The notes under the pieces are model-generated. The model searched no databases. It saw only the letters and a program-made list of their open reading frames with translations, and had not been told where the DNA came from. Below, in pieces: positions 6,836-10,068 of a DNA stretch of 46,062 nt (its first letter is position 1; every line of letters starts with the position of its first letter). Made by a program: the position numbers and the translations under genes. The DNA lies in assembly GCA_016179955.1 (NCBI GenBank), contig JACPCD010000016.1, forward strand, positions 24,206-70,267, in the 5' to 3' direction. The stretch comes from Candidatus Woesearchaeota archaeon. Its GTDB lineage: Archaea > Nanobdellota > Nanobdellia > Woesearchaeales > GW2011-AR9.

Positions 6836-8134
6836 TCACTTCAGTATTCCATACCCGATCAGCCGAAACCTATCGCCCACTCTCCGGGAAATGGTAATCC
6901 GGCTGCCCCGCTCGGCACAAATCGGTTTTTTAAGCACACAGGTCGTATTCTTCTTGGACGGGTCAACGACTACCCCTACCGTTGCTGCGGAATTCACGTT
7001 TAACATCAGCACTTCTCCTTTAGCCAGAGGCTTGACGTCCGTCTCCTCTTTCGTTCCCACCACCCGCTCCAATAAATAAGTGTCCAAGGCTACCTGATAA
7101 TGCACCGGGGGTAATTTTCCCGGCAGGCCAACCATGGAACCAGTTAATGAATCCGATTTGACGATGCTGGGGTCTAAAGCAGTTTCTATTGCCATACTGC
7201 CGCCAGGAGATATTTTTAAAACGGGAACCCCGCCGGAAAAGATTTGGGTGATGGTAGTGGTTAATGGCTTCCATATTTTCTTGTTCTTCTCTTCCACCAT
7301 ATAGCCAGGCAGAATATCAACAGTTTCTCCCACCGACAAAATACCCTGCTTTATGGTGCCACCAACCACACCACCTTTCAGATTAGCGGAAGTAGTGCCG
7401 GGCCGATTGACGTCAAAAGATCGTGCGACCAACATCAAGGGGTCTTTGTGAAGGTCTCGAGGGGGAGTAGGAATACTGTCCTGAATGGCCTTCAGCAGCA
7501 TGTCCACGTTGACGTTGGCTCGCGCCGAAATGGGGATGACTGGAACATCTTTATAATCGGTTCCCGCTAAGAATTCCCGAATCTGCCGGTAATTCTCCAG
7601 CGCTTCGTCATGGCTCACTAAATCAATCTTGTTCTGAATCACAATGACGTTTTTGATGCCGCAGATCTGCAACGCCACCAGATGTTCTTTGGTCTGAGGC
7701 TGAGGACATTTTTCATTGGCTGCTACTAACAGCAAGGCACCGTCAACAATGGCGGCACCGCTTAACATGGTGGCCATTAACGATTCGTGCCCGGGAGCAT
7801 CCACTAACGACATTTTCCGTTGGGGCGCAACTGCTTGATTGCACTTGCTGCATTTATCCTTGACAGTGTACCGAGCACACGGTTCACAGTACGAAATGGT
7901 AAAATCAGCATATCCCAAACGAATGGTGATGCCTTTCTTCAATTCTTCCGAATGGGTGTCGGTCCATTTGCCGCTCAGCCGTTCCGTTAAGGTAGTTTTG
8001 CCATGGTCAACGTGGCCGACTAACGCCAAGTTCAATTCCGGCTGGACGGAAAGAGTTTCAGTGGTGGAAGTGTCACTGAAAGCGGCAGCAGCAGGTGTAG
8101 TAGAATTTTCCTCAGTGCTTTTTTTGCGCGGCAT
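6836..8134 (-). CDS. Translation initiation factor aIF2 subunit gamma
   Basis: GTPase subunit of aIF2, which delivers initiator Met-tRNA to the small ribosomal subunit. G1 is GHVDHGKTT (residues 40-48), G3 DAPGH (~112), G4 NKID (~168), G5 region SARAN. A zinc knuckle with CxxC pairs (YCEPC and KCSKC, ~80-98) sits inside the G domain, as in archaeal aIF2-gamma; domains II and III follow. An unusual ~33-residue Ser/Thr/Ala-rich N-terminal extension precedes the G domain. TATA (coding strand CTTTTATAAATA, 8155-8166) gives a leaderless start at 8134. Upstream lies the MITE-like element. Confidence 0.97.
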   Translation of the reverse strand: MPRKKSTEENSTTPAAAAFSDTSTTETLSVQPELNLALVGHVDHGKTTLTERLSGKWTDTHSEELKKGITIRLGYADFTISYCEPCARYTVKDKCSKCNQAVAPQRKMSLVDAPGHESLMATMLSGAAIVDGALLLVAANEKCPQPQTKEHLVALQICGIKNVIVIQNKIDLVSHDEALENYRQIREFLAGTDYKDVPVIPISARANVNVDMLLKAIQDSIPTPPRDLHKDPLMLVARSFDVNRPGTTSANLKGGVVGGTIKQGILSVGETVDILPGYMVEEKNKKIWKPLTTTITQIFSGGVPVLKISPGGSMAIETALDPSIVKSDSLTGSMVGLPGKLPPVHYQVALDTYLLERVVGTKEETDVKPLAKGEVLMLNVNSAATVGVVVDPSKKNTTCVLKKPICAERGSRITISRRVGDRFRLIGYGILK

Positions 8135-8197
8135 TACCTTTCCTGAAAAGAGGCGTATTTATAAAAGTTTAGGGGGAAGTCGAGGGAAAGTCGTCCT

Positions 8198-8206
8198 ATA
8201 GAAAAC
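8198..8206. repeat. Target-site duplication, left copy (9 bp)
   Basis: ATAGAAAAC directly abuts the left terminal inverted repeat of the element at 8207-8347. The identical 9-mer abuts the right end at 8348-8356. Confidence 0.7.
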
Positions 8207-8347
8207 GGCTCTGTAGAAAGTCTCGCTCGCACCCTGCCTCATTGTTTTCATTACTGCAAAAAGTAGTTGAAATGAAGTGGCAGGGCATCACTCGTCTTAC
8301 GAATAGTCGAGTGCTCGCTGGCGATATTCGCGACTTTCTACAGAGCC
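8207..8347. mobile_element. MITE-like non-autonomous element (141 bp)
   Basis: Perfect 16-bp terminal inverted repeats: GGCTCTGTAGAAAGTC at 8207-8222 and its reverse complement at 8332-8347, flanked by a perfect 9-bp direct duplication. No ORF inside. The interior folds strongly: an imperfect ~24-bp hairpin whose base is CCCTGCC (8232-8238)/GGCAGGG (8279-8285), plus CACTCG/CGAGTG and GCGA/TCGC hairpins. The layout is that of a miniature inverted-repeat transposable element mobilised in trans. It sits between the promoters of aIF2-gamma and the UbiB-like gene. The parent transposon family is not identified; a structured RNA is the alternative, but the target duplication favours transposition. 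Confidence 0.75.
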
Positions 8348-8356
8348 ATAGAAAAC
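8348..8356. repeat. Target-site duplication, right copy (9 bp)
   Basis: ATAGAAAAC, identical to 8198-8206. The pair brackets the terminal inverted repeats exactly, as expected for a recent insertion. Confidence 0.7.
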
Positions 8357-8406
8357 AACAACTTTAAAAAACTCCCCTGCATTCTTCCCCTTAAAAGAGG
8401 AAAGAC

Positions 8407-10068
8407 ATGACTTTATACGAATTGATCAAGAACCACCAGCACCGCCAGCGATTGGAAGAAATCCTCAGCGTCTTTGCCGAGCAGGAATTCGGCTACCTCA
8501 TCTCCAAGATAAAACTCCATCACCATCTGCCATTTACCAAAAGGCTAAGGGCACGCATTGCCTTGGAAAAAAAGACTGATATGCCGGTGCGGCTGCGCCA
8601 GGCGTTTGAACAGTTGGGGCCTACGTTCATCAAATTCGGGCAACTCTTGTCGTTACGGCCAGATTTAGTTCCGCCAGCGTACGTTGCTGAGTTCGAGAAG
8701 ATGCAGGATCATGTTCCGGAATTCCCATTTGCCCAGGCCCAAGAGATCATTGAAAAGGAATGCCACCAGCCTTTACATAAAATCTTTACTTCATTTTCCA
8801 AGACGCCGATTGCCTCTGCGTCAATGGCCCAGGTCTACAAAGCAAAGCTTGGAAACAAGATAGTAGCAGTGAAAGTACAGCGGCCGAACATTAAGGCCAT
8901 TATCAACACCGATATAGAGTTAATGTATAAAATAGCCGACTTGCTGGAGTATCACATTCCAGACCTGAAAGAGTACCATCTCAAATCCATCGTCCATGAA
9001 TTTGAGAGATGGACCATCAAAGAACTGAACTTCCGCATTGAAGCGCACTATGCCCAGAAAATTGCCCGGAACTTTAAAGGCAGCGCCATCCTTAAAATTC
9101 CGGAAGTCTACCCTGCTTTAAGCACTGATAAAGTAATGGTGATGGAATACATTGAAGGCATCCCGTTACATGATATCGCTCAACTTCAGAAAAATAATAT
9201 CAACTTGAAGAGAATCTTCCGCCAGGGCTATGAAATTTTTATCAAGCAATTCTTCATTGACGGCGTGTTCCATGCCGATCCTCACCCCGGCAACATTCTG
9301 ATCCTGAAGAACGGGAAAATTGCGCTGATAGATTTTGGCATCGTGGGCTATTTTGACCGGAAATTGCAAGAACAAACGTTAGATTTAGTGCGGGCCATCG
9401 TCAGCACAGATTACGAAGCTGCTACGGCCGTAATCCTCAAGATGAGTTCGGCAGAAGACGTCGATCGGAAGGCTTTCGAAGCCGATATCAAGCAAGTATT
9501 TGAACAGCTGCAATACACGTCCGTGCAGGATATCCAGCTCAGCCAGACCCTGCGGGATCTTACTACTATTATCAACAAGCACCACCTGAGCATTCCCCTG
9601 GAATTCGTGCTGTTTGAGAAAACCATTATCACGCTGGAAGGAACCGCCTTGAGGTACCAGCCAGAATTTAATTTCCTACGTGAAACTAAAACCATCTTAG
9701 ACAAATTACTGGATCGGGCCTATTTTGCCGCTCAAGCTATCCATAAGACCAAACATAAATTATCGGAATACAAGGAGTTGCTGGAAAATTTCCCGGAGAC
9801 GGCAACGGAGATCTTAGAGAAAGCACGGAAATTTAAGGTTAATATTGAAATCGATGATGCTGAAGTCCGCGGCCTTACCCAGGAGATTGAGCGCTCGTCG
9901 GGGAATTTGGCATTAGGGATCATTATTGCGGCCCTGATTATGGGGTCCGCTACCATCATGCAAATCTCCTATACTTCCTACGTGCCCATTATGGGGTTTA
10001 CGCTCGCCAGCATGTTATCATTATGGCTGATCCATCGCACCATTTTCAAGCAAATATACCTGAGGTGA
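8407..10068 (+). CDS. UbiB/ABC1 (ADCK) family atypical kinase
   Basis: Atypical protein-kinase-like ATPase, linked in other organisms to isoprenoid-quinone and lipid homeostasis. Family marks: KFGQLLSLRPDLVP (KxGQ motif, about residues 78-91), alanine-rich nucleotide loop ASASMAQVYKA, VAVKVQRP, HADPHPGNIL and ALIDFG. The C-terminus carries two TM helices (~500-550). Length 553 is normal. A GAGG site lies 6 nt before the ATG; a TATA-like CTTTAAAAAAC (8362-8372) starts just outside the MITE, so this promoter may have been reshaped by the insertion. It is followed after 6 nt by a phasin-like gene, a recurrent pairing. Confidence 0.93.
   Translation: MTLYELIKNHQHRQRLEEILSVFAEQEFGYLISKIKLHHHLPFTKRLRARIALEKKTDMPVRLRQAFEQLGPTFIKFGQLLSLRPDLVPPAYVAEFEKMQDHVPEFPFAQAQEIIEKECHQPLHKIFTSFSKTPIASASMAQVYKAKLGNKIVAVKVQRPNIKAIINTDIELMYKIADLLEYHIPDLKEYHLKSIVHEFERWTIKELNFRIEAHYAQKIARNFKGSAILKIPEVYPALSTDKVMVMEYIEGIPLHDIAQLQKNNINLKRIFRQGYEIFIKQFFIDGVFHADPHPGNILILKNGKIALIDFGIVGYFDRKLQEQTLDLVRAIVSTDYEAATAVILKMSSAEDVDRKAFEADIKQVFEQLQYTSVQDIQLSQTLRDLTTIINKHHLSIPLEFVLFEKTIITLEGTALRYQPEFNFLRETKTILDKLLDRAYFAAQAIHKTKHKLSEYKELLENFPETATEILEKARKFKVNIEIDDAEVRGLTQEIERSSGNLALGIIIAALIMGSATIMQISYTSYVPIMGFTLASMLSLWLIHRTIFKQIYLR

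Follow-up and report, generated by a model that had tools for sequence, protein, structure and literature searches.

A short block in a 46,062-nucleotide stretch of DNA from a Candidatus Woesearchaeota archaeon (GenBank assembly GCA_016179955.1, contig JACPCD010000016.1, positions 24,206 to 70,267; hereafter the window) is best explained as a miniature inverted-repeat transposable element (MITE), i.e., a non-autonomous transposon mobilised in trans by an IS5-like transposase, inserted next to a promoter and carrying a core that has been exchanged between sets of ends; we hold this account as a whole with high confidence. The element occupies positions 8207–8347 (141 bp, no strand assigned), and its identity as a MITE rests on exact terminal inverted repeats (TIRs) and an exact target-site duplication (TSD), on further copies of its core, on matches in relatives, and on empty sites in three genera. 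The block is a transposon insertion, its ends and duplication place it in a family, and the members of two transposase families share a register relative to promoters that is one base wide.

The left TIR (GGCTCTGTAGAAAGTC, 8207–8222, plus strand) returns as its exact reverse complement at 8332–8347 (minus strand), matching at 16 of 16 positions, and the inverted repeat reaches 19 nt with one mismatch. Outside the TIRs stand two copies of a 9-bp TSD, ATAGAAAAC (8198–8206 and 8348–8356, no strand assigned), identical at 9 of 9 positions. The interior contains no open reading frame (ORF) of at least 60 amino acids, and a transposase gene is absent. The 141 nt fold at −68.3 kcal/mol, as compared with −35.7 for dinucleotide shuffles (z = −8.8), and none of 200 shuffles folded as low. 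A first-pass annotation, made from the sequence alone, had described perfect 16-bp TIRs, a length of 141 bp, the lack of an ORF and a perfect 9-bp duplication, all of which were exact on re-measurement, and the folding result bears out its "highly structured interior".

The two genes flanking the element, a divergent pair encoding aIF2-gamma and a UbiB-like kinase, are kept together in two related genomes (G011, locus L304, and G005, locus L307), and the UbiB orthologue is found in a third (G007, locus L305). Comparison with the empty site, as the first-pass annotation had proposed, revealed that the element is missing from the orthologous loci of all three genera, which read ATAAAAACAACAAGTTTAAAAAACTC (L304), CAAAAACAACAAGTTTAAAAAATC (L305), and TTAAAACAACAGCTTTAAAAAC (L307), as against ATAGAAAAC, the element and then ATAGAAAACAACAACTTTAAAAAACTC in the window. 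Only one copy of the duplicated sequence is present in empty sites (ATAAAAAC in L304), and the promoter, consisting of the B recognition element (BRE) and the TATA box, is retained there. The window block is a genuine insertion.

We considered whether the block might instead be a structured RNA of the host, i.e., a riboswitch, leader or small RNA, as could be suggested by its folding (z = −8.8) and by a covarying core that is conserved across genera. This is very improbable when considering that precise TIRs and TSDs bound the element at dispersed loci, that orthologous sites are empty, and that the orientation of the core relative to that of the targeted promoter varies (18 to 9), the window copy lying upstream of both flanking promoters. 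Neither the window nor the elements matched Rfam 15 at gathering score, with weak chance matches only; the single gathering-score match was a tRNA elsewhere in L037, outside the elements. An absence of other copies, together with conservation of the whole block including both 9-mers, had been named beforehand as the pattern that would favour a conserved structured RNA, and it was not the pattern found. Part of that alternative does apply, in that the core keeps a covarying structure from one genus to the next, but the block as a whole is a transposon insertion with empty sites.

A blastn search followed by a covariance model of the core identified five further core copies in the source genome, a metagenome-assembled genome (MAG) that is 81% complete, for six in total. 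Four of these relatives (at C6, C19, C33, and C11) are 135-bp elements that have the inner ∼110 nt in common with the window element, with GTATGTGCATAGC ends and perfect 8-bp duplications (CTTTCTTC, TATTTCAA, GGCAAAGT, and GTTGTTTT); the sixth core copy (C4) has GGCTTTGTAGAAAAGT ends. Searched with covariance models of the core, 11 of 145 relatives contained 51 copies (model R1) and 18 of 380 contained 78 matches (model R2). A core-pattern scan of 84,980 species genomes yielded matches limited to Woesearchaeota, Nanoarchaeota, and otherwise unclassified archaeal MAGs, and viral contigs contained no exact match to the pattern. Core copies outside the source genome mostly have IS5-type ends (GGCTAATATGAAACCCT, GGCTTTGTAGAAACCCT, GGCTTAGTAGAAAAGT) with 9-bp duplications, some bear GTATGTGCATAGC ends, and a few in genomes G035 and G193 bear further end types. 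Because the core sits between further end types in those two genomes, the data suggest that exchange of ends around it occurred more than once. The further ends are G.G.TTATCATC and GGTGCGTTTAAAAT (L335 and L345 in G035; L336 and L346 in G193).

Insertion sequences (ISs) of the IS5 family (the NF033579 group) have IS903-like ends with a 9-bp TSD. The window element has ends of this type, GGCTCTGTAGAAA and variants, with a 9-bp TSD, and not IS66 ends with an 8-bp TSD. Full IS5-like ISs with the same end type were found in relatives: L147 (994 bp, 9/9 TSD) and L152 (1019 bp, 9/9 TSD, with the TIR GGCTAATATGAAACCCTC seen in many MITEs) scored 140.3 and 145 bits, respectively, against the NF033579 cut-off of 140, and L151, L145, L144, and L146 are further examples, the best model for L146 being NF033579 at 110.8 bits, under that cut-off. 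The TIR type of the window element is found on L146, L147, L145, and L151. An intact IS5-like copy in the source genome, L141 (934 bp), passes PF01609 and has NF033579 as its best model at 91.6 bits, again under the cut-off. The type-B (GTATGTGCATAGC) ends are those of ISs of the IS66 family, represented by L201 and L202 (1526 bp between ends); both have GTATGTGCATAG ends and a PF03050 transposase, and L202 also matches NF033517. The GTATGTGCATAG end occurs in 63 of 380 genomes and more than 100 times in one of them, and one MITE, L222, resembles an IS66 end with its inner part lost. A Mutator-superfamily p-MULT transposase was not encountered as mover of these elements, the movers being IS5-like (PF01609) and IS66 (PF03050). 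The earlier description of the block as a MITE-like insertion is thus borne out by the core copies in its own genome, by autonomous ISs in relatives with the same end type and duplication length, and by the empty sites. The suggested BLASTN search for copies and for a full IS succeeded in its first half, with five core copies in the genome, but recovered no IS there with exactly the TIR of the window. Because of this, we infer the transposase donor, and with it cross-mobilisation, from the relatives. Several candidates were rejected along the way. The ends of L135 (GGCTCTGTCCTAA), which is IS5-like and lies at the edge of a contig in the source genome, mismatch the window's TIR; PF13737 gave one degenerate match in G001 (L131) with no matching ends; and several single GGCT..GAAA matches beside genes are MITEs with a degenerate second end, no transposase being recognised alongside.

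The insertion sites themselves provide the most specific result. Among a first set of 70 sites with duplications, an exact TATA octamer lay at offset 6 outside the duplication in 23 IS5-type and 12 IS66-type sites, and at any other offset in at most 3. With the prediction fixed beforehand, we then examined a hold-out of 34 further IS66-type sites with duplications (one of which, L245, duplicates first-set site L235), from genomes chosen only for bearing a GTATGTGCATAGC end. This hold-out gave 21 exact octamers at offset 6, and 26 of the 34 sites fell within offsets 5–7 as compared with 0–6 in control windows of equal width. After removal of repeats, a TATA box stands 6 bp outside the duplication at 37 of 41 IS5-type and 46 of 62 IS66-type sites, and a TATA-like octamer (at least 7/8) occurs at offsets 5–7 on one side of 14 of 14 full IS5-like copies and of both IS66 copies. 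When the sites are aligned, a directional motif that reads outward emerges, (C/A)(A/G)nAAnnTTTATAAA, corresponding to a BRE followed by a TATA box, and the far side is blank. The BRE-like AA at outward positions 2–3 carries 0.8–1.1 bits, a feature on which the sites were not selected. An outward ORF starts in 45 of 59 testable sites, mostly 28–34 nt from the TATA start; since this is the distance expected of leaderless genes, the targeted genes are mostly leaderless. At two further sites, inspection by eye showed tRNA-like sequence downstream. The elements thus lie at a fixed distance upstream of promoters, which is the behaviour of TnGBS. The insertion spares the promoter, landing directly upstream of the BRE, which in the window is that of the UbiB-like kinase.

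Survival of harmless insertions alone, those elsewhere having been lost, could be invoked for this distribution, as compact genomes offer little other neutral space and the elements examined are intergenic. We regard selection as sole cause as scarcely credible: an insertion shifted upstream by a few more bases would do no more harm, yet the peak spans a single base (offset 6 has 23 and 21 exact octamers, any other offset at most 3). A credible rival, though on balance improbable, is that the transposases recognise the BRE and TATA box as DNA, by sequence or by ease of bending, and cut at a set distance from them, rather than reading bound proteins. Indeed, a preference for sequence or bend would likewise yield a sharp register, and the TSD position adjoining the BRE shows a base preference in IS5-type sites (C55 A35, 0.77 bits). 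However, the distance from inner cut to TATA box is the same 6 bp in two unrelated families despite their staggers of 8 and 9 bp. The motif, moreover, stands on one side only and comprises an entire directional promoter, with a gene beginning at the spacing typical of leaderless transcripts, a pattern most simply explained by a bound complex as landmark. Recruitment by TBP and transcription factor B (TFB) is therefore the cause we favour from this analysis.

The structured core (8222–8332, plus strand; models R1 and R2) is the part held in common with the IS66-type elements. Its helix P1b pairs 8225–8232 with 8311–8318 (both plus strand, each backed by covariation) around a constant 2×2 internal loop, and hairpin P2 (8232–8285, plus strand) pairs CCCTGCC at 8232–8238 with GGCAGGG at 8279–8285 beneath a variable apical part, with six double-change pairs among 24 sequences. 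For P1b and P2 together, 24 diverse copies had standard pairs in 92.7% of cells and double changes in 9 of 12 pairs; 0 of 500 shuffles had as many double-change cells, and slid structures scored far lower. The P1b changes were T-A to C-G (in three copies, the window's included), A-T to G-C, and C-G to T-A. The small hairpin P4 (GCG/CGC, 8321–8331, plus strand) covaries as well, with compensatory pair types across 44 sequences, and a proposed helix P3 was dropped for want of covariation. The core thus has compensatory changes beyond those of controls, as expected of a conserved structured nucleic acid.

Long DNA palindromes are prone to quasi-palindrome correction, and template switching of this kind could produce covariation in place of selection for the fold, the more so as the TIRs must themselves stay complementary for the transposase. 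We consider this unlikely, as correction would erase mismatches and would not conserve loops, yet the 2×2 mismatched loop of P1b (T-C, C-T) is retained in 41–42 of 44 copies, and some of the best-conserved parts of the core are unpaired motifs, GTCTNACGA for example. Because compensatory change maintains the helices, selection probably acts on the core as a folded strand, either RNA or extruded or single-stranded DNA; the fold is observed, the strand and its function being presumed. The core is unlikely to serve the adjacent gene as a leader or riboswitch, since in the window the element sits between divergent promoters and core copies face either way relative to the promoter that is targeted. 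More probably it serves the element, as folded DNA or as its own transcript.

With regard to the surrounding features of the window, the aIF2-gamma gene (6836–8134, minus strand; GTP_EFTU and eIF2_C domains) and the UbiB/ABC1-like kinase gene (8407–10068, plus strand; ABC1/UbiB-type kinase) bear the names they had been given. The targeted promoter belongs to the latter: a BRE-like AACAAC (8357–8362, plus strand), matching the consensus of all sites and kept in empty sites, lies directly outside the TSD, and the TATA box TTTAAAAA (8363–8370, plus strand), kept in L304, L305, and L307, starts exactly 6 bp outside it. The divergent aIF2-gamma gene has a TATA box (8158–8165, minus strand, seen in the sequence) that was not the target; because this box is 31 bp from the ATG, the gene is probably leaderless. 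An earlier claim that the element lies between two key promoters and is close enough to influence both holds for location but is not borne out for influence on both, as the insertion point, exactly upstream of the UbiB-like BRE/TATA, leaves that promoter intact and is ∼33 bp from the aIF2-gamma TATA box. In G011, where the UbiB promoter region (L304, 1290–1440) has no MITE, the TATA box is separated from the start codon by a different long hairpin (ATGCAAAAATAGCC...GGCTATTTTTTGCAT).

Several observations concern the elements at large. Both end types enclose interiors other than the window core: GTATGTGCATAGC ends hold unrelated structured interiors (L203, L207, L211–L219, L267–L286, and others), e.g., GCATC..AAGTCAAAAT...ATTTTGAAGATGC and GGATTATGCTACTGCC, and IS5-type ends with 9-bp duplications hold further families (L114, L117, L118, L119, L129), e.g., GTCGTC..TTGGCC...GGCC..GACGAC. 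Four MITE copies (L125, L126, L229, and L231, in G038, G005, and G282) are enlarged to 233–553 bp by extra tandem hairpins inside the interior, roughly 40–60 nt each (e.g., ACTTTGAAT...ATTCAAAGT), with ends and TSD nearly or fully intact, and L206 (G027 C118), a core-family element with IS66-type ends, has a tandem duplication of ∼57 bp of the core. A MITE end lies no more than a few tens of bases from the terminus of many contigs (many in G215, also C26, C98, C100, and C120 of G011), so assembly probably fails at the elements, which would make the copy numbers underestimates. Apparent 49-bp palindromes in G013 were rejected as short MITEs, being full elements interrupted by assembly gaps (NN).

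Taken together, an IS5-like DDE transposase (PF01609/NF033579) would mobilise the MITE in trans, recognising its GGCT...GAAA ends and duplicating 9 bp, and IS66-family transposases act independently on GTATGTGCATAGC ends with 8-bp duplications. Both groups, as the site statistics show, place elements directly upstream of the archaeal BRE and make the inner cut at a distance of 6 bp from the TATA box, such that the promoter and its mostly leaderless gene remain intact. The most likely cause would be recruitment of the transpososome by promoter-bound TBP/TFB, with an outcome comparable to that of yeast Ty3, and the ∼110-nt core has been transferred among unrelated end frames, of which there are at least two and probably more. 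In its fullest form, the proposal is that two unrelated archaeal DDE families, each on its own, recognise the TBP/TFB pre-initiation complex and insert just upstream of it, the self-folding core being a passenger that swaps ends between them; we advance this tentatively, as a little short of an even proposition. Several points weigh against the main account. The transposases may recognise BRE/TATA DNA directly, and 16 of 62 IS66-type sites have no TATA box at the expected place. The source genome, at 81% completeness, has no autonomous IS bearing exactly the window's TIR, the intact L141 ending in GGCGTTATTGAAAAGTC, and no other copy of the element's TIR at up to 3 mismatches was found in the window or the genome. 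With regard to the core, counts of G.T as against A.C single out neither strand as the one that folds, and the window element, between two divergent promoters, is untranscribed from neighbouring genes. The insertion sites also serve as natural promoter mapping in uncultured DPANN archaea (BRE, TATA box, and mostly leaderless starts), and a conserved folded core within several sets of ends raises the question of its selective cause.

In the open-access literature (subscription papers were not covered), we found no report of archaeal IS5 or IS66 elements inserting in register with a TATA box, and none of a Woesearchaeota MITE. Stable stem-loops near genes are ordinary among prokaryotic MITEs such as the Correia and Sulfolobus elements (PMC10969869), which the window element resembles in being short, ORF-less, intergenic and present in several copies, with TIRs, a TSD, a stable stem-loop, and ends shared with ISs; what sets this family apart from them is that its conserved core occurs within at least two unrelated end frames and that its insertions keep a one-base register upstream of core promoters. 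It shares with the IS5 family its GGC... ends, the 9-bp duplication, and a DDE_Tnp_1-type transposase in relatives, but lacks the transposase itself, and promoter targeting is not described as an IS5 trait in the literature searched. To the IS66 family belong the GTATGTGCATAGC ends, 8-bp TSD, and PF03050 transposase of the type-B relatives of the core, whereas the window element has IS5-type ends. The bacterial Mutator-type transposons TnGBS, ISLre2, and ISKra4 insert 15–17 bp upstream of the −35 box of sigma-A promoters, for which contact with the RNA polymerase initiation complex has been proposed (PMC3942029); the fixed distance is alike, but the transposase superfamily is another, and those promoters are bacterial. 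On archaea, that paper remarks only that the motif duplicated by ISH6 is AT-rich and might be located in promoters (PMC3942029). In yeast, the Ty3 integrase contacts TBP and Brf1 and inserts 2–3 bp upstream of the start site of RNA polymerase III genes (PMC8632968). Insertion is harmless and base-precise in both cases, that of Ty3 beside a TBP-containing complex, but Ty3 is a retroelement integrase with a solved TBP contact, which here would be only a presumed one. Targeted transposition is thus known at TBP-containing complexes from eukaryotic retroelements and, in a bacterial version, at sigma-A promoters (PMC8632968, PMC3942029); base-precise targeting of archaeal BRE/TATA promoters by two DDE families would, if true, add a third system, simpler than these and amenable to in vitro tests, with TBP and TFB as its likeliest landmarks.
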